Positions 3,537 through 55,261 of a stretch of 64,000 nt of DNA are shown piece by piece. This stretch comes from Salinilacihabitans rarus (GTDB lineage: Archaea > Halobacteriota > Halobacteria > Halobacteriales > Natrialbaceae): assembly GCF_024296665.1 (NCBI RefSeq), contig NZ_CP100762.1, positions 1,984,001-2,048,000 of the forward strand, in the 5' to 3' direction. Numbering within the stretch: position 1 is the stretch's first letter; each line of letters opens with the position of its first letter. The notes under the pieces are model-generated. The model did no database searches. It saw nothing but the letters and a program-made list of their open reading frames with translations, and was not told the origin of the DNA. A program made the position numbers and the translations under genes.

Positions 3537-6456
3537 CGGAGCTCACCTCCGCGCCCTCGGGGGTGCGACGACTGTCCGCGTGCTCCGAGAGGTTCGTCGG
3601 CCGCGGCGTGGTGCCGATGAACGCCTCGCGTTCCTCCTCGGAGTCGAACTCGGCTTCGATGACGCGGTCGGCGATCTGATCGACGTCGATGTCGTGTTCC
3701 TCGCCCGAGGAGACCTTCACCGGCGAGGTGCCGTCCTCGCCGAACTCGAACTGGACGATGGTGTCGCTGGTGTCGCGGACGGTGCCGTCGTACTGCGTTT
3801 CGAGTTCGGAGAGGGCGTTGATCAGCCGCCGCTGGAGGTAGCCGGACTTCGACGTTCGCACGGCGGTGTCGACCAGCCCCTCGCGACCGCCCATCGCGTG
3901 GAAGAAGAACTCCCGCGGGGTGAGCCCGGCCGTGTAGGAGTTCTCGACGAAGCCGTGGGCCTCCGCGGAGAGGTCGTTCTCCTGGTAGTGGCTGAGCGTG
4001 CGGTTCTCGTAGCCGCGGTTGATTCGCTCGCCGCGAACCGCCTGCTGGCCGACGCAGCCGGCCATCTGGGTCAGGTTGAGCATCGACCCGCGGGCCCCGG
4101 AGGTCGCCATGACGACCGCGGGGTTGTCCTCGTCGAAGTGCTCCTCGGCGATGTTCCCCGCGTTGTCGCGGGCCCGCGAGAGCGTCTGCATGATCTTCAT
4201 CTCGAGGGTCTCGTCGATCGTCCGACCCGGCAGGGACTCCAGTTCGCCCCGCTCGTAGGCCTCGATCAGCTCCTCGACGCGGTCGTAGGCGTCGTCGATG
4301 GTCTCGTCGATGCGCGAGCGCGCCTCCGCCGGGATCGTCTCGTCGTCGATGCCGATCGAGAACCCGAAGTGCATGATCGCACGCATCGCCAGCGTCGAGA
4401 CCTCGTTGATGAAGATCCGCGCGCGCGTGTTGCCGTAGACCTTCGTGATCGTGTCGACGATCTCGCCGCCGAACTCGCCGACCTCGTCCTCGGCGATGGT
4501 GCCGGAGACGAGCTGGCCGTCCTCGATGGTGACCTGCTCGCCCGTCGTGCCCGTAAACTCGAGGTTGAGGTCGTCGGGCAGCAGTTCCGAGAAGACGTCC
4601 CGGCCGGTCCAGAACGGCTCGCCCTCGTCGTCGATGCCGCTCGGCTCGGGCAGTTCGTCGATCCGGGTCGCCCGCAGGAGGTCGAGCGCCTGCGTCTCGT
4701 TAAAGCGCGGGTTGTCGTGGGTCAGCAGGTAGGTCCCGCTGATGTGGTCCTGGATCGCGCCGATGATGTTCTCGCCGAAGCGCGGGGAGAGGATCTGCTC
4801 CTGGACGCGCATCAGGACGCGGGCCTCGGCGCGGGCCTCCTCGTTCTGGAGGGCGTGCATGTTCATCTCGTCGCCGTCGAAGTCGGCGTTGTACGGCGGA
4901 CAGACGACGGTGTTCAGCCGGAAGGTCTTGTACGGCATGACCACGACCTCGTGGGCCATGATCGACATCCGGTGTAGCGACGGCTGGCGGTTGAAGATGA
5001 CGATGTCGCCGTCGATGAGGTGCCGGTTGACCTCCCAGCCGGGTTCGATCTTCTCCGAGAGCTCCTCGCAGTTCTTCTCGGTCACCTTCAGCCGGCGGCC
5101 GTCCGGCCGGCGCACGTAGTTCGCGCCCGGGTGGGCCTCGGGGCCGTTGCGGACGTAGCGCCGGGCGTCGGCGAGGTTGCGCTCGGTGACGTTCATCGTC
5201 TGGGTCATCTCCTTTGCCACGCGGTCGGGGACGCCGACCTCGTTCAGGCTAAGCGTCGGGTCCGGCGAGATGACCGTCCGCGCGGAGAAGTTCACGCGCT
5301 TCCCGGACAGCGAGCCGCGGAATCGGCCCTCCTTGCCCTTGAGCCGCTGGGAGAGGGTCTTCAGCGGCCGGCCGGAGCGGTGGCGGGCCGGCGGCGTCCC
5401 GCTGATCTCGTTGTCCATGAACGTCGTGACGTGGTACTGCAGCAGTTCCCACAGGTCCTCGATGATGAGTTGGGGAGCGCCGGCCTCGCGGTTCTCCATG
5501 AACCGCTGGTTGATCCGGATGATGTCGACCAGCTTGTGCGTGAGGTCGTCCTCGGAGCGCTGGCCGTTGTCGAGGGTGATCGACGGCCGTGCCGTCACGG
5601 GCGGTACCGGCAGCACCGTCAGGATCATCCACTCGGGCCGGGAGCGCTCGGGGTCGATGCCCAGCACCTCGATGTCCTCGTCCGGGATGTCCTCGAACCA
5701 GTCGCGGATGTCCGAGGGCATCAGCTTGTTCGTGTCCTCCTCGGTGAGGTCGATGCCGAGTGCCTTCTCGATGGCCTTGCGCTGGCCCTCGCGTGGGCGG
5801 AACGATCCCGAGAGGATCTCGTTGATCCGCGAGAGTTCGATCTCGGTCTCCGCGGCGAGTTCGTCCGGCGTCGTCCGCTCCTCGTCCTCGCCGCCCTGCA
5901 TCGCCGCGGCGATACGCTGGGAGTACTCGCTGGTGAGGACCTGCTGGACCTCGTAGTACGTGGTCGGCTTCTCGTGTTCGATGTCGTACTGGATCTCGCC
6001 GCAGTGGGGACAGCGGTCCTTCTTGCGGGCCTGCCTGATCGCCGCCTTCGTCACCTCGTTCAGGTCCCGACCCAGCTTTCGCGACTCGACGATCTGGTCG
6101 CGGAACTCGTCTTTCTCCTCCTCCGTCAGGAGCAGCCGCGAACACTCCCGGCAGGTCCCACGCAGCAGGCGCCGGATGAGCTTCGTGAAGCCGACGTGGA
6201 TGACGGGCGCGGCGAGTTCGATGTGGCCGAAGTGGCCGTTACACGACCCCGAGTGTTTCCCGCAGGTCTTGCACTCCAGACCGGGATCGATCACGCCGAG
6301 TCGGGGGTCCATCAGCCCCATGTCGATGGGGAAGCCGTCGTCGTCGTAGGTGTCGGCCGTGATGATCTTCGTCGCGCTCATCTCCCGGTACTCCTCGGGC
6401 TCCATGAGCCCGAAGTTGATCGATCCGATGTCCTTCGGTGTGGTGTTTCTGATCAT
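3529..6456 (-). CDS. rpoA1: DNA-directed RNA polymerase subunit A' (Rpo1N)
   Basis: Catalytic large-subunit N-terminal part, 975 residues. The clamp zinc site is visible as C62-C65 and C72-H75 ([17 protein letters not shown]), followed by CRECSR and CPHCGE cysteine pairs. The active-site Mg-binding motif NADFDGDE lies at about 522-529. The segment ending EVSSDD runs into the A'' start. The gene follows rpoB' after a single base. A split A subunit is general in archaea. Confidence 0.99.
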
Positions 6457-6457
6457 C

Positions 6458-8287
6458 TTAGACGGCGTCCTCCAGTTCGAGTCGCGGCGCGATGCCGAGT
6501 GCCTTCATCTCGTCTAACAGGAGCTTGAACGCGTAGCTCATCTCGATCTCGTGGATGTCGGTCTCCTCGTCGCAGTTCGGACAGTAGACCCGGCGTTGCT
6601 CGACGTTCTCGACCGCGCTCATCCCGCAGTTGCCACAGACGTGGATGAACTCGCGGTCGGACTCGTCGAGCAGGCGCTCCTTGAGCGTCATCGCGGCGCC
6701 GTGACCGATGAAGACGTCGCGCTCCATCTCCCCGATACGGAGCCCGCCCTCGCGGGCGCGGCCCTCGGTGGGCTGGCGGGTGAGCACCTGCACCGGCCCG
6801 CGCGAGCGGGCGTGCAGTTTGTTCGAGACCATGTGGTAGAGCTTCTGGTAGAAGATCACGCCCACGAAGATCTCGGCCTCGATCTTCTCGCCCGTCACGC
6901 CCGAGTACATGACCTCCTTGCCGGCGGAGTCAAAGCCCGACTCTTCCAGACCCTTCCGGAGGTCCTCCTCGTCCTCGCCGAGGAACGGCGTGCCGTCGAC
7001 CCGTCGCCCCTCCATCGCGCCGAGTTTGCCGCCGATCATCTCCAAGATGTGCCCGACGGTCATCCGCGAGGGCAGCGCGTGCGGGTTGACGACGAGGTCC
7101 GGCACGACCCCCTCCTCGGTGAACGGCATGTCCTCCTGTGGCGCAAGGTGGCCGACGACCCCCTTCTGGCCGTGGCGGCTGGCGAACTTGTCCCCGAGTT
7201 CGGGGATGCGCTCGTCGCGCACGGAGACCTTCGAGAGCTTCGAGCCGTCCTCGCCCTCCATCAGCGTGACCGTGTCGACGACGCCCGACTCGCCCGAGCG
7301 CATCGTCACGGAGGTCTCGCGGCGCTTCTGGGGCGAGAGCCCGCCCATGTCGTCGGGTTCCTCGAGGAACCGCGGCGGCGAGGTCTTGCCCAGCAGGACG
7401 GAGTTCTCGTCGACCTTCGTCTCGGGGTTGACGAGGCCGTCCTCGTCGAGGTGGGCGTAGGCCTCCTCGCCGCGGGCCCCGCGGACGTCCTGGGAGGGGA
7501 TCTCGAAGCGGTCCTCCTGACCGCCCGGGTAGCGGCGCTCCTCGCCCTCGTAGGTCCGGAAGAAGTGCGAGCGGGCGAGCGCGCGCTCGACGCTGGCCTT
7601 GTTCATGACCAGCGCGTCCTCGATGTTGAACCCCTCGTAGCTCATCACGGCCACGACGAAGTTCTGGGCCGCGGGGCGGTCGTCGAAGCCGATCTGCTCG
7701 GTGGTCTGGGTCTTGACCATCGAGAGCTGCGGGTAGTGCAGCAGGTGCTGGCGGGTGTCCGGCCGGATCCGGTAGTTGGCGGCCGGCAGCCCCAGCGACT
7801 GCTTGATCATCCCCGCGCCCATGGTAATGCGCGGGCTGGCGTTGTGCTCGGGGTAGGGGATCATCCCCGCGCCGATCCCGAAGATCAGCGAGGGGTCGAT
7901 CTCGAGGTGGGTGTGATCGTCGGTGAGTTCGTCCTCGTCGACGGCGACGTAGATGTCCTCTTCCTCCTCGGCGTCGATGAACTCGATGTAGCCGTGGTCG
8001 ACGAGGTCCTCGAACTCGAGGTCGCCATCGCGCAGCGCCCCGATCTCCTCCTCGGAGATGCGCGGCTCGCCGTCCTCGACGACCAGCAGCGGGCGTCGCG
8101 CGCGACCGGCGTCGGCGTTGACGATCACCTCGCGGGTGCGCTCTTTCACCGAGACGTTGACCATCTCGCTGACGTCGCCGATGCGACGCGCTTCGCGGAT
8201 CTGTTCGGCCAGCTCGTGGGGGTCCGGGTGGGTCCCGACGAGCGACCCGTTGACGTACACCTTGGCTTCTCGTTGTTGACTACTCAT
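6458..8287 (-). CDS. rpoB1: DNA-directed RNA polymerase subunit B' (Rpo2C)
   Basis: C-terminal half of the second-largest subunit. It contains [13 protein letters not shown] (hybrid-binding/active-site region), the [16 protein letters not shown] block, and the C-terminal zinc ribbon CGNCGM...CPNCDEE. I chose the ATG at 8287 ([14 protein letters not shown]), one base after the B'' stop. The reading frame is open 19 codons further up, but that stretch lies inside rpoB'' and has no family similarity. The product is about 609 residues, normal for haloarchaeal B'. Confidence 0.98.
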
Positions 8288-8288
8288 G

Positions 8289-9863
8289 TCAGTCGTCTGC
8301 GGGGGTTCGGTCGACGCCCTCGAGGCCAGGGATGCCCTGGACACCCATCGACGCCAGTTCGCGTTTGAGTTCCTGTTCGTCCTCGACGTCCTGGGAGAGC
8401 TCCATCGCCTGCGCGAAGTTCTTCACCAGGCCACAGTTCGGTCCCTCGGGAGTCTCCGAGGGGCAGATGCGACCCCACTGGGTCGCGTGCAGGTCCCGCG
8501 CCTCGAAGTGCGGCTGCGACCGTGACAGCGGCGAGCGCAGCCGGCGCAGGTGGCTCAGAACCCCCATGAAGTCGGTCCGGTCGACGAGCTGGGAGACGCC
8601 GGAGCGCCCGCCGACCCAGTTGCCCGTCGCGATGGGGTGTTCGAGCCGTTCGGTCAGCACGTCCGAGCGGACGACGGTGTTGACCGACAGCTGGCGGTTG
8701 CGCATGTTCGCCCGTTCGAGCTGGTACTTCACGTCGCGGGCCAGCTTGTTCAGCGCCGTCCGGAACAGGTCTTTCATCAGGTCGCCCGACACTTTGAGCC
8801 GCTTGTTCGCGTAGTGGTCCTTGTCGTCGGCCTCGCGGCGCCCGAGCGCGAGTTCGAAACAGGCCTCGGCCATCCGGCAGAGGTAGTGGGCCTTGTTGAT
8901 CCGGACGTCCTCCTCGTCGACGCCGTCCTCGTGGAGGTGCGGCAGGAGGTAGCGGTCGATGACGTAGTTGGCGCGTTTGAGCTGGTAGTTTTTGCCCTGG
9001 CCGGAGGCGACCCGGCGACCGAGGGCCTCGATGGCCTCCTCTTTCGTCTGGACCTCGGCCTCCTCTAAGTTCTCGAGCATGTACTTGACGATCTCCGGGT
9101 CGTTCGAGACCCGGTGGACGATCTCCTCGTCGGACTCCAGCCCGAGCGCGCGCACGAGCGTCACGAAGTTGATCGAGCCCGAGACGGAGGGGAACGAGAC
9201 CTCGAGCAGTCCGTTGCGCGTCCGCTCACAGAGGACGAGCGCGCGGTACCCCCGCCGCTGGCTGAACGTCTTCGCGACCTGGATCTCGTCGCCGTACTTG
9301 GTGTCGTACTCGGCGAGGATCTTGTTCGGCGCGAGGTCCTCGCTGGTCATCAGCACTCGCTCGGAGCCGTTGACGATGAAGTAGCCGCCGGGATCGGCGG
9401 GGTCCTCGCCGATCTCGATCAGTTCCTCGTCGGAGAAGCCCGCGATGTTGCACTTCTCGGAGCCGACCATGATCGGCATCCGGCCGATCTTGGTCTCGGT
9501 CTGGTCGACCACCCGCTGGTCGCTCTCCTCGCCCTTGACGATCGACATCTCCATGAAGACGGGCGCGGAGTAGGTGATGTTGCGAAGCCGGGCCTCCTGC
9601 GGATAGAGCAACTCTTCGGAGCCGTCGGCCTCCCGAACCCGGGGGGTCACCACGCGCACGTCGCCGAGTTCGACGTGTACCGGTTCCTCGCCCTCCTTGT
9701 CGCCGATGTCGGTGTCGATCGTCGCCTTCTCGTCGACGACCTCCTGCATGCCGCGGGTGAGGAAGGCGTTGAACGATCGGTAGTGGTGTTCGGCGAGCCG
9801 TTCCCGCGAGAAGTACTCCCTCGAAATGTCGCGTCGTGTCGTTCGGTTCAGTTCCATGTCCAT
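8289..9863 (-). CDS. rpoB2: DNA-directed RNA polymerase subunit B'' (Rpo2N)
   Basis: N-terminal half of the second-largest subunit, 524 residues. It starts with the family pattern [20 protein letters not shown] and contains [12 protein letters not shown] near residue 145 and the [18 protein letters not shown] block (rifampicin-region equivalent) near 430. The split between B'' and B' is typical of halophiles and some methanogens. The start at 9863 directly abuts the rpoH stop. A second ATG two codons later (9857) is also possible. Confidence 0.98.
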
Positions 9864-10091
9864 CTATTCTACCACGAGTCGGTAGACCACGGCTTGGTCG
9901 GTCGTTCGCGAGTCCCGGACGATCTTGATGACGTCCCCGACCTCCGCCTCGTCGGGAAGCGCCGGATCGGTGCGTTTGATTTTCGGCAGGTCTGTGCGGT
10001 CGATGTCGTACTCCTCGAGCACGCCCTCGAGGGTCTCTTCGTCGAGGACGGTGTGCTCCGGAACGAGTTCGTGTTGGCTTACGTCTACCAT
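9864..10091 (-). CDS. rpoH: DNA-directed RNA polymerase subunit H (Rpo5)
   Basis: 75-residue polymerase subunit equivalent to the C-terminal domain of eukaryotic RPB5. The start [16 protein letters not shown] at 10091 matches the family. KIKRTDPAL and [12 protein letters not shown] near the C terminus are the conserved H-subunit signatures. It is first in the rpoHB''B'A'A''nusA operon and abuts rpoB''. The frame extends 12 codons upstream, but those codons do not resemble the family. Confidence 0.97.
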
Positions 10092-10158
10092 GTGTTGGTC
10101 TGGGCTAACGAGAGAAGCGGCTGTCACGAGATACTACAGACACCTATCGGCGGCAGCC

Positions 10159-10164
10159 ATTTAA
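10159..10164 (-). promoter_or_regulatory. TATA-like box of the rpo operon
   Basis: Minus-strand TTAAAT preceded by a GAAACCG BRE-like stretch, 68 bases before the rpoH start. It would give a leader of roughly 40 bases. Seen in sequence; function inferred from haloarchaeal promoter rules. Confidence 0.5.
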
Positions 10165-10586: not shown

Positions 10587-11000
10587 GTGGGTAACTCGAA
10601 AGACATCGGTGACGAAACGGAGGCGGTAATTATCTCGCACCTCGTCGCGGATGGCTACAGCGTCGCGATCCCTTTCGGCGACAACGACAGGTACGACCTC
10701 GTGGTCGACGACGAAGAAAACCTCTATCGAGTGCAGTGTAAAACCGCGTGGCGAAACAAAGAACGGACGATACGGTTCAACACGCACTCACAGACGACGA
10801 AAGACGGCCAGTATCACGAAAGGACGTATCACGAAGAAATCGATGGGTTTCTCGTTCGATACCCGGAGAACGATCGTCTCTATTGGATCGGAATCGACGA
10901 CGCGACCGAACAGAAAATGGAACTTCGGTTCGAAGCGCGCATAGATCACCCATCCATCAACTGGGCTGCTGATTACGAATTCGACGGGAAAATTCCGTAA
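10587..11000 (+). CDS. Small PD-(D/E)XK nuclease-like protein (PDDEXK_5 type)
   Basis: 137 residues. The fold signature is clear: an N-terminal helix DIGDETEAVIISHL, a strand pair with D37 in DRYDLVV, then V-Q50-C51-K52 (the (D/E)-X-K element in its QCK form) and TRP-containing strands. This arrangement matches the PD-(D/E)XK family first described for group I intron homing enzymes (PF11645), common as stand-alone archaeal genes. GTG at 10587 is taken as start; the TATAGATTAAGTAATAAT stretch just upstream suits a leaderless transcript. No intron or partner gene is visible. Base composition is somewhat more AT-rich than its neighbours, and it lies directly after a tRNA gene, which suggests acquisition. 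Function unknown. Confidence 0.75.
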   Translation: MGNSKDIGDETEAVIISHLVADGYSVAIPFGDNDRYDLVVDDEENLYRVQCKTAWRNKERTIRFNTHSQTTKDGQYHERTYHEEIDGFLVRYPENDRLYWIGIDDATEQKMELRFEARIDHPSINWAADYEFDGKIP

Positions 11001-51253: not shown

Positions 51254-52660
51254 ATGAAGGAGTACCAAACGATTACGGAGATCAGCGGTCCGCTGGTGTT
51301 CGCCGAGGTCGACGAACCCGTCGGCTACGACGAGATCGTCGAGATCGAGACGCCGGACGGCAAGACCCTGCGCGGGCAGGTGCTGGAGACCAGCGAGGGA
51401 CTCGTCTCGATCCAGGTGTTCGAGGGGACCGGCGGCATCGACCGCAACGCCTCGGTGCGCTTCCTGGGCGAGACGATGAAGATGCCCGTCACCGAGGACC
51501 TCCTCGGGCGGGTGCTCGACGGCTCGGGGAACCCGATCGACGGGGGCCCGGAGATCGTTCCCGAGGAACGGGTCGACATCGTCGGCGAGGCGATCAACCC
51601 CTACTCCCGGGAGTACCCCGAGGAGTTCATCCAGACCGGCGTCTCGGCCATCGACGGCATGAACACGCTGGTTCGCGGCCAGAAGCTGCCGATCTTCTCC
51701 GGGTCGGGGCTGCCACACAACGAACTCGCCTTGCAGATCGCCCGGCAGGCGACCGTCCCCGAGGAGGCCGACGAGGAGGGCGAAGGCTCCGAGTTCGCGG
51801 TCATCTTCGGCGCGATGGGCATCACCCAGGAGGAGGCAAACGAGTTCATGGAGGACTTCGAGCGCACCGGCGCGCTGGAGCGTTCGGTCGTCTTCATGAA
51901 CCTCGCGGACGACCCCGCAGTCGAGCGGACGGTCACGCCGCGACTCGCGCTGACCACGGCGGAGTACCTCGCCTTCGAGAAGGGCTACCACGTGCTGGTC
52001 ATCCTCACGGACATCACCAACTACTGTGAGGCGCTGCGCGAGATCGGCGCCGCCCGCGAGGAGGTGCCGGGCCGGCGTGGCTACCCCGGCTACATGTACA
52101 CCGACCTGGCGACGCTGTACGAGCGCGCCGGCCGGATCGAGGGCCGCGAGGGGTCCGTGACGCAGATTCCGATCCTGACGATGCCCTCCGACGACATCAC
52201 CCACCCGATCCCGGACCTGACGGGGTACATCACGGAGGGGCAGATCATCGTCGACCGGTCGCTGAACTCCCAGGGCGTCGAGCCGCCGATCGACGTGCTG
52301 CCGTCGCTGTCCCGACTGATGGACGACGGGATCGGCGAGGGGCTGACCCGCGCCGACCACGGCGACGTCTCCGACCAGCTGTACGCGGCGTACGCGGAGG
52401 GCGAGGACCTGCGCGACCTCGTGAACATCGTCGGCCGCGAGGCGCTCTCCGAGCGGGACAACAAGTTCCTCGACTTCGCCGACCGCTTCGAGGAGGAGTT
52501 CGTCCAGCAGGGGTACGACACCAACCGCTCGATCGAGGACACCCTCGAGATCGGCTGGGACCTCCTGTCGACGCTCCCGCGGGAGGAACTCAACCGCGTC
52601 GACGAGGAGTTCATCGAGGAGCACTACCGCGAGGGCGACGTGGTCGAGGTCGAGGCCTGA
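51254..52660 (+). CDS. atpB: A-type ATP synthase regulatory subunit B
   Basis: 468 residues. Non-catalytic nucleotide-binding subunit: the P-loop is replaced by [19 protein letters not shown], as expected. [40 protein letters not shown] is the family signature. Start ATG at 51254. Unlike many archaeal operons, atpD does not follow directly; 1.9 kb separate them. Confidence 0.99.
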
Positions 52661-52766: not shown

Positions 52767-52895
52767 TTTTATCACGATATGTCGTTACTCATTCGCATAG
52801 AGAAGCCGTTGCTCGTTACCGACTTTCTCGACCGTGCATGGGAGTACTACGCCGACGACGAGGCCGTGGTCGCCACCACCGGAGAGCGATACACC
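52767..52895 (+). pseudogene. Stump of an acyl-CoA synthetase (AMP-forming) gene with promoter
   Basis: From 52797 the frame reads IEKPLLVTDFLDRAWEYY, then ADDEAVVATTGERYT up to 52895, closely like the N terminus of haloarchaeal fatty-acid-CoA ligases (M-x-KPLLVTDFLDRA...). After that the similarity and the high G+C end abruptly. A BRE/TATA pair (CACCGAAACAGGTTTTATCA, TATA at 52767-52772) is placed for a leaderless start at 52797, where the codon is ATA and not ATG. The true gene is missing its remaining roughly 500 codons. An ATG at 52779 opens a 77-codon frame across the junction, unlikely to be functional. Confidence 0.7.
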
Positions 52896-53107
52896 TCAAG
52901 TTCTGAGATGGTATTTGAAAAGTCTAATTCGATCCAGTCTCTACGAGCACCGAGGCAGGATATTTTCTATTTTCAGGATTTAAAATTATACTGTCTCATC
53001 TCTCGCTCTTAACTACATACCTCCGCCACGAGATCGCCTTTTAATATGAGCTATTACTAATATCCATACAAGACAGAGGATGGGAAAAGCTAGTCGCTTA
53101 GTTAACT

Positions 53108-53938
53108 CTAGAAGGGCTTCTCATTCTCATCGATATACGAATAAGTTTTGAAGTCGCTCTTATCTAAGGCAGTTCCGCCTTCCAGATAGTCGAGAACCGC
53201 ATGCGACGTACATCGAGTAAATGCAGGCTGAAGGTTAATAGTGTTATAAGTAGTCCACGAGTTTCCGAAACATCCTTCGTCAGGTGGGTTATTATCGAAC
53301 CAGTCATTAGCCGCATTCGTATAGCCGGTGGCCATGATCGTAGCCTTCCCGCCTTCACCGTGCATATCAGGGTGTCCGTGACTGTGAACGGCCCCCATAC
53401 AGTGTGCGACCTCGTGAATAGCAGTGTTATACCCATACTGATATCCGGTAAGACGGTTCAGTTCAGCGTGGTTATTATTCGCGTAACAGACGCTTCCTTC
53501 CGACGAATAAATTTTTTCGTCGATAGTGGAACGACCGAGATTATAGTCAGAACCTCCATGAATAATGACAAAGTTCATTTGGCCCGGATTCTGGTAAGTT
53601 GACGGCACAGCGTCACGAACCGGATCTTCCCAGTCCGAACCGTTTCCGCTGAGGGAAACGTCGTAAGCGCGCCCCAGATCTGAAACATAAACATTATGTA
53701 CATATCCAACCCATGTTTCTAGCCACGAAGCGAAGTCGTTTAACCCATCACGGACACCGTTAAAGAACGGTTGATCAGGATCACCGACCGAATCACCGGT
53801 GTGGATCTTAAATGATAATTCTGTGATGTCTTTCGCAGTATCGCTGTAAGCGGCACCGACACCGGCTATACCTGCGGTGGCAGCTGTAGCACCAGCAGCT
53901 CTCATTACGTCACGTCGGGAAAGTTGTCGGTCAGACAT
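53108..53938 (-). CDS. Tat-exported metzincin-type zinc metalloprotease
   Basis: 276 residues. Twin-arginine signal LSRRDVMRAAGATAATAGIAG (RR at 8-9; hydrophobic core to about 30). The extended zinc motif H175-E-V-A-H179-C-M-G-A-V-H185 is exactly HExxHxxGxxH, and the Met-turn IMATGY (M202) follows 17 residues later, the spacing expected of metzincins. Cysteines at 151, 180, 223 and 243 could form disulfides outside the cell. A minus-strand AATTTATTAC box at 53964-53973 gives a promoter close to the ATG. Much more AT-rich than the surrounding genes, so recently acquired. Substrate unknown. Confidence 0.85.
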   Translation of the reverse strand: MSDRQLSRRDVMRAAGATAATAGIAGVGAAYSDTAKDITELSFKIHTGDSVGDPDQPFFNGVRDGLNDFASWLETWVGYVHNVYVSDLGRAYDVSLSGNGSDWEDPVRDAVPSTYQNPGQMNFVIIHGGSDYNLGRSTIDEKIYSSEGSVCYANNNHAELNRLTGYQYGYNTAIHEVAHCMGAVHSHGHPDMHGEGGKATIMATGYTNAANDWFDNNPPDEGCFGNSWTTYNTINLQPAFTRCTSHAVLDYLEGGTALDKSDFKTYSYIDENEKPF

Positions 53939-53963
53939 CTCAGAACTACATAAAATACGGAAG

Positions 53964-53973
53964 GTAATAAATT
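53964..53973 (-). promoter_or_regulatory. TATA box of the metzincin gene
   Basis: Minus-strand AATTTATTAC preceded by TTGGAAAG, about 26-35 bases before the start codon at 53938. Confidence 0.45.
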
Positions 53974-54337
53974 CTTTCCAAGACTAGTCCTATTAGTATC
54001 TTATAAAATTACTAAAATTGAAAAGCAGGCTCCTGTTTTGGGCGGGTTTTAGGCCTTAAAACCGATATTGAGGCGGTTGAAGGCGTTATCTAGTGTTCAT
54101 TCACCTATCGGATCACGTGAGCGGCTTCATTAGTAATCTGCTAAGAGAGAATATAACTTCGAGTCATGGAAAAGCAATCCGATCGCGAGTGTTTCTATCA
54201 TATTTTGTTATCCTACAAATATTATTTTTAGTATATCGACATTTTCGCTATTCGACAATGAACGGCAAACTTCGCTTCCCAGCTTCCGGTTCATACTGAA
54301 CAGGGGCCCGTAAACCGGGAAATCGAGAACATATTAG

Positions 54338-54460
54338 TTATTTTATATATTGCCACAGTATTCCGAAAATAGGAGTTTCAAAATCCCCGGGCATATCGTC
54401 CACGGTTGAATAGACGTTAGACAGTGCCAACCTTGCGAAGCTAGAGGCATCACAATAGCC
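54338..54460 (-). pseudogene. Possible IS5-type transposase remnant
   Basis: A 40-residue minus-strand segment ending in a TAA at 54338 includes DASSFARLALSNVYS. The D-A-S-x-F-x-R-x3-S-x2-Y pattern recalls the DASGF(D)R...S..Y stretch around a catalytic Asp in haloarchaeal IS5-family transposases. The downstream sequence (TVDDMPGDFETPIFGILWQYIK) does not continue the match. Weak evidence, reported because of its place at the island edge. Confidence 0.22.
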
Positions 54461-54497
54461 GTTCCGGCCGCTGGACCTGCGCCTTTGAGCGGAACGG

Positions 54498-54511
54498 AAC
54501 TGTAAACAGTT
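54498..54511. repeat. Inverted repeat AACTGT-AA-ACAGTT before atpD
   Basis: Perfect six-base arms around AA, 31-44 bases before the atpD ATG, in the position of the BRE/TATA region of an atpD promoter. It could be an operator, or the boundary of the island. Confidence 0.4.
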
Positions 54512-54541
54512 ATCCGACTGGGGGCACAAGCGACCACCAAG

Positions 54542-55261
54542 ATGGCCAAGGACGTCAAACCCACTCGGAAGGAGTTGATGCAGATCGAGGAGCGCATCGA
54601 CCTCTCCGAGCGGGGCCACGGCACCCTCGAAAAGAAGCGGGACGGCCTGATCATGGAGTTCATGGACATCCTCGACCGCGCACAGGACGTCCGCGGGGAC
54701 CTCGCGGAGGACTACGAGCGGGCCCAGAAGAAAATCGACATGGCCCGGGCGATGGAGGGCGACGTCGCGGTCCGCGGGGCCGCCGCCGCGCTGCACGACC
54801 ACCCCGAGATCACCACCGAGGCCAAGAACATCATGGGCGTCGTCGTCCCGCAGATCGAGTCCTCGCGCGTCTCGAAGGGGCTCGACCAGCGCGGCTACGG
54901 TATCATCGGCACCTCCGCGCGCATCGACGAGGCCGCCGAGGCCTACGAGGACCTGCTGGAGAGCATCATCCTCGCCGCCGAGGTCGAGACGGCGATGAAG
55001 AAGATGCTGCGGGAGATCGAGACCACGAAACGGCGCGTCAACGCCCTCGAGTTCAAACTCCTGCCCGAACTCCACTCGAACAAGGAGTACATCGAGCAGA
55101 AACTCGAAGAGCAAGAGCGCGAGGAGATCTTCCGCCTGAAGAAGATCAAGGAGAAAAAAGAGCAGGAAGAGCGCGAGGCCCGCGAAGCCGAAGCGGAGGC
55201 CGCCAGCGACGACGACCTGGAACAGGAGGCGACCGTCGGCGGCCTGCCCGGCGGCGACTGA
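54542..55261 (+). CDS. atpD: A-type ATP synthase subunit D
   Basis: 239 residues. Central-stalk rotor subunit with the two long helices of the family: [37 protein letters not shown] at the start and [44 protein letters not shown] near 165-210. Acidic C-terminal tail. It is separated from atpB by an unrelated island and must have its own promoter. Confidence 0.97.

Follow-up and report, generated by a model that had tools for sequence, protein, structure and literature searches.

Probable replacement of an acyl-CoA ligase gene by an AT-rich metzincin-like gene segment at the variable atpB-atpD gap of Salinilacihabitans rarus

In the 64,000-nucleotide stretch of Salinilacihabitans rarus DNA that we analysed (the window, part of a 3.62-Mb contig), two intact genes of the A-type ATP synthase lie on the plus strand with a gap of 1.88 kb between them. 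These are atpB, encoding subunit B (51254-52660; 82-91 % identity in relatives), and atpD, encoding subunit D (54542-55261; 83-90 % identity in the family). Three features follow one another in the gap. The first is the remnant of an acyl-CoA ligase (AMP-binding) gene, consisting of the start codon and the first 39 codons (52779-52895, plus strand) and recognized by its homology to the ligases that occupy the same slot in relatives. The second is an AT-rich island that stands where the remainder of the ligase would be (52897-54490, no strand assigned, right edge uncertain within 54457-54497). The third is a promoter-like block of 44 bp with AACTGTAAACAGTTATCCGACTG (54498-54541, plus strand), which lies directly between the island and the atpD start and is conserved across the family. 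The family comparison set comprised 125 genomes from 29 genera, and the gap itself was compared in a sample of 24 related genomes, each from a different genus than the host.

The G+C minimum of the window over 1.5 kb is the stretch at 52.9-54.5 kb (0.44; runner-up 0.57). The drop in G+C reported in the preliminary description therefore holds as the most AT-rich 1.5 kb, but the 38 % given there fits the non-coding flanks only, since the island (52897-54489) has a mean G+C of 0.45 against 0.68 for the whole window. Within it, the single gene has 0.49 and the non-coding flanks have 0.39 and 0.42. GC3 is 0.47 in this gene versus 0.92-0.96 in atpA, atpB and atpD. In the other atpB-atpD gaps of the family the lowest G+C over 300 bp is 0.49, and none is as AT-rich as that of the window. 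The left edge of the island is at 52896/52897, the point where acyl-CoA ligase homology breaks off; position 52896 had been noted before as the start of the island, which is right as to place, but it had been missed that a truncated ligase gene ends there. The right edge falls between approximately 54457, the composition change-point, and 54497, before the conserved atpD block, and homology picks up again at 54489-54503 in most family genomes. No second copy of the island was found in its own genome and an Rfam search of it gave no match, while a search of 124 family genomes with its right non-coding 551 bp gave nothing convincing, the best match covering 28 bp at E 0.006.

The only credible gene of the island in the list of open reading frames is on the minus strand (53108-53938) and encodes a protein of 276 amino acids, which the reading frame, alignments, AlphaFold2 and Foldseek together predict to be a metzincin-like zinc protease with a Tat signal. 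Residues 8-9 are RR, the zinc motif HEVAHCMGAVH spans residues 175-185 (53384-53416, minus strand) and the Met-turn IMATGY residues 201-206 (53321-53338, minus strand). Across ten aligned proteins, distant relatives included, R8, R9, W76, H175, E176, H179, H185, M202 and Y206 are invariant, in agreement with the earlier report of one convincing gene bearing these three marks. The inner glycine of HExxHxxGxxH varies, and because the segment from HExxH to the third histidine is longer in several homologues, the site as a whole is variable and the seemingly perfect motif represents one of its forms. The AlphaFold2 model, built from the ten-sequence alignment, has a mean pLDDT of 62 and a pTM of 0.70; its quality is good in the N-terminal subdomain up to and including the active-site helix but poor past residue 186, with the C-terminal third at low confidence. 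The top 50 Foldseek matches in the PDB are all metzincin-fold or ADAM-type domains (best E 7e-5), with modest TM-scores of 0.25-0.60. In Pfam, the protein scores just under the curated cut-offs of PF13582 (Reprolysin_3; 22.0 bits versus 22.4) and PF13688 (Reprolysin_5; 17.6 versus 27), an NCBIfam search returned signal-sequence and chance matches only, and searching PDB sequences gave nothing informative. Zinc motif, Met-turn and modelled fold are those of the metzincin clan. Since its Pfam scores fall slightly short of the curated thresholds, we do not assign the protein to the M12B adamalysins/reprolysins, and call it metzincin-like, from a subgroup that has no curated family.

The twin-arginine pair is invariant in the ten homologues, as in a Tat signal peptide. 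Of the Tat profiles, TIGR01409 matches six of six proteins and PF10518 four of six, the window protein lying just below both cut-offs. Judging from these sequence features, the protein is probably exported by the Tat route and is a putative zinc-dependent peptidase. Most likely it would fold in the cytoplasm, cross via Tat and cut extracellular or envelope proteins, among which those of the envelope or of competitors are plausible targets. In catalysis, H175, H179 and H185 would hold a zinc-activated water, with E176 as the base.

Among known systems, the adamalysin/reprolysin-like metzincins (PF13582, PF13688; MEROPS M12B) share with the window protein the succession of strands and helices as far as the active-site helix, the HExxHxxGxxH motif and the Met-turn, and Foldseek matches include snake-venom and ADAM catalytic domains. 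Unlike the M12B adamalysins, it has a Tat signal and no recognisable prodomain in addition to its Pfam score under the cut-off, and in several of its homologues the third histidine lies far past the usual spacing. Bacterial metzincins of the fragilysin type form the second large group of fold matches (probability about 1.00), but the identity is only 11-17 %, and the window protein again carries a Tat signal where no prodomain is visible. The archaeal metzincin archaemetzincin (AmzA) is matched at E 2.4e-3; the likeness is by fold alone, and the window protein differs in carrying a signal peptide.

A single-sequence search of the family found matches in 6 of the 125 genomes, plus two further copies in the host genome itself. 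The occurrence of these window-type genes is sporadic, and compared with their hosts they are AT-rich, with members at 0.50-0.56 G+C in G+C-rich genomes. A wider profile recovered Tat-signal metzincin-like proteins in 93 of the 125 family genomes, although some of the weakest matches span part of the model; those inspected have HExxH motifs and methionine turns. Thus, the view that metzincins are sparse in haloarchaea is too strong. Proteins of the wider group in the same family (for example L008 and L150) share the Tat signal, HExxHxxGxxH and the methionine turn with the window protein, which BLASTP aligns to the L008 protein at 29 % over 85 amino acids. Their genes are G+C-rich and the wider group is present in most genomes, whereas genes of the window type are rich in AT and occur sporadically. 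A first class-wide profile search was discounted, as its matches were mostly to the Tat signal only. No metzincin relatives were found among plasmid and phage proteins, none were confirmed in scans of genome contigs and viral contigs, and the collection of papers searched contained none joining metzincins and haloarchaea. The haloarchaeal Tat-signal metzincins are an uncurated group that is open to biochemical testing.

The ligase remnant probably indicates what the slot held before. In 8 of the 24 other family genomes, an intact ligase gene of the same orientation, encoding AMP-binding and C-terminal domains (Pfam), precedes atpD in this gap. The best amino-acid match of the remnant, 88 % identity over 33 residues, is to the intact 536-residue ligase that L041 has at this position, and DNA homology to the remnant stops at 52894-52896 in every ligase-bearing relative. 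The remnant's reading frame continues past the left edge of the island as far as a stop at 53012. Outside the gap, the closest ligase that the host genome encodes is a paralogue with 79 % identity to the reference ligase; at the DNA level the remnant is 82 % identical to the slot ligases versus 73 % to this paralogue. A ligase remnant beside an AT-rich metzincin island is seen only in this genome. Because 39 codons remain here and an intact ligase occupies the slot in one third of the relatives, the metzincin cassette most likely replaced the ligase.

In this family, the atpB-atpD gap has long been variable. Over the 34 loci that were read, the distance ranges from 96 bp to more than 12 kb; in each of the 24 family genomes the two genes are separated, by 0.4 to more than 11 kb, and six of these genomes have no atpB within about 11 kb. 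The cargo in relatives is unrelated and variable, including the ligase, Pst-like transporter genes (identified by eye) and bacteriorhodopsin. The bacteriorhodopsin gene is at L063:8667-9428 with a relative in L064, one genome being of this family and one of another, which puts the gene of a light-driven proton pump beside one of the ATP synthase; the gap of L062 has a bat-like regulator gene (8177-10162). A metzincin between atpB and atpD is absent from all other loci searched, the 24 family genomes included. Similarly, Nab. magadii (Natrialba magadii) has an atpHIKECFAB cluster with an unlinked atpD, and similar clusters occur in several other haloarchaea (PMC3403918). In Haloquadratum, atpD is a monocistronic unit with the highest expression within the cluster (PMC5496347).

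The block before atpD is nearly invariant. Its palindromic part (54498-54520) is at the matching place in L040-L060, and 19 of the 24 other family genomes have ACTGTAAACAGTTATCCGACTG exactly, the remaining five having a partial or diverged form. The host genome contains the exact site a single time and no other exact copy of the longer pattern, and the 14-bp palindrome within the block is absent elsewhere in the window. Hence, the data do not support an operator that atpD would have in common with the main atp operon. The position is that expected for a haloarchaeal promoter, and we infer that the block is the promoter of atpD; its palindromic portion, AACTGTAAACAGTTATCCGACTG, may be a candidate site for a regulator. 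A sigma-70 scan was set aside as unsuited to archaea. We propose that the variable gap is tolerated because a conserved promoter of its own, within about 44 bp of the start, drives atpD. Such a near-invariant block can explain the expression of subunit D whatever occupies the gap. The preliminary description had asked how atpD stays matched to the other subunits. Since the gap is variable across the family, in line with the published unlinked and monocistronic atpD genes, this question concerns the family as a whole rather than the island, and a private promoter would answer part of it.

Taken together, we favor replacement of the slot ligase by an acquired metzincin cassette at a variable gap where atpD has its own promoter, to which we give a probability of roughly 0.8. 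An ancestor would have carried the ligase between atpB and atpD, as the eight relatives do today. Horizontal transfer would then have brought in an AT-rich cassette whose single gene, of the sporadic, AT-rich haloarchaeal subgroup, encodes a predicted Tat-exported metzincin, and this cassette would have taken the place of the ligase from its codon 40 to the promoter of atpD. This would be tolerated because atpB and atpD are independent of that DNA and the genome still has a ligase paralogue at another place. That the metzincin segment is foreign, and probably recently acquired as stated at the outset, is well supported by its absence from the other gaps, its unadjusted composition and the agreement of the fold search; the direction of the replacement and the route of entry are more conjectural, as is the promoter function. 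What looked like a puzzle, an essential operon split by a protease gene, thus becomes a gene replacement at a tolerant site with its left break placed to about 3 bp, which is neat but ordinary.

The low G+C could partly be an AT preference of the metzincin subgroup rather than the mark of a donor genome. Taken further, the gene could be old in the genus and vertically inherited here, its composition being a property of the subgroup and not of recent transfer. The other members, AT-rich in G+C-rich hosts as well, are consistent with this, yet we consider it unlikely, as none of the 24 family genomes has the gene at the gap, which speaks against an ancestral gene there, the non-coding flanks are also low (39-42 % G+C) and the right flank lacks convincing similarity in 124 genomes.

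As to how the replacing cassette entered, the island has a perfect 12-bp inverted repeat, AGTTCTGAGATG, with its left arm at 52899-52910 (plus strand), 3 bp inside the left edge, and its right arm at 53936-53947 (minus strand), containing the metzincin start codon. It could be a recombination site through which the gene segment flips or entered. The two copies are the only ones in the whole 3.62-Mb genome, of the simulated islands 0.5 % have an arm 15 bp or less from the left edge, and a computed inversion fuses the ligase remnant in frame to the whole metzincin reading frame (319 amino acids). However, about 6 % of simulated islands have at least two perfect 12-bp inverted repeats, as this island has, and the repeat may be a chance product. 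A random join has a one-in-three chance of being in frame anyway, the Tat signal would be buried in the fused protein, no recombinase is nearby and the right third of the island lies outside the repeat. Recombination at this site is thus very improbable, and since the edge-arm test was chosen after the fact, we treat the repeat as a lead rather than a finding. As noted in the preliminary description, no integrase or att site is found at the island; there is also no target-site duplication and no repeat pair at both of its edges. With one credible gene, no edge repeats and no relatives on plasmids, phages or viral contigs, the island was not classed as an integrative mobile element.

The view first put forward, that insertion of the island interrupted a previously intact atp operon and so parted atpD from atpB, has in its favor the foreign DNA in the 1.9 kb between them but is hardly credible, because the two genes are split throughout the 24 family genomes, the gap here is smaller than in 17 of them, the remnant of another gene precedes the island, atpD has its own promoter-like block, and unlinked or monocistronic atpD genes are published (PMC3403918, PMC5496347).

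Other window-type metzincin copies, with neighbours read by eye, lie beside serS and elongation factor 2 (L075) and beside guaB and hemC (L077). In L078, a CRISPR array with a period of about 72 bp and cas1/cas2-like genes (approximately 5700-9100) adjoin a window-type paralogue. We speculate, with rather low confidence, that the AT-rich metzincins of haloarchaea make up a family of cassettes, each with one gene and no integrase, that shift from one intergenic gap by housekeeping genes to another, vary in the length of the zinc-site loop from copy to copy and perhaps act as exported weapons or surface-remodelling proteases. In the host genome, a 60,742-bp segment holding a CRISPR array, cas genes and a metzincin paralogue is present twice as a perfect tandem (C1:521518-643020, L131-L137). 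It has the 19-bp repeat ACGGCGAACGCGGTGTTCG at each end and a G+C of 0.62 versus 0.69-0.70 around it, and the tandem could be an integrated element dimer, a recent duplication or an assembly artefact. Within the window, the second-lowest G+C belongs to a 137-residue reading frame (10587-11000) upstream of the RNA polymerase B-subunit gene, which on reading its sequence resembles a small PD-(D/E)XK nuclease-type protein.
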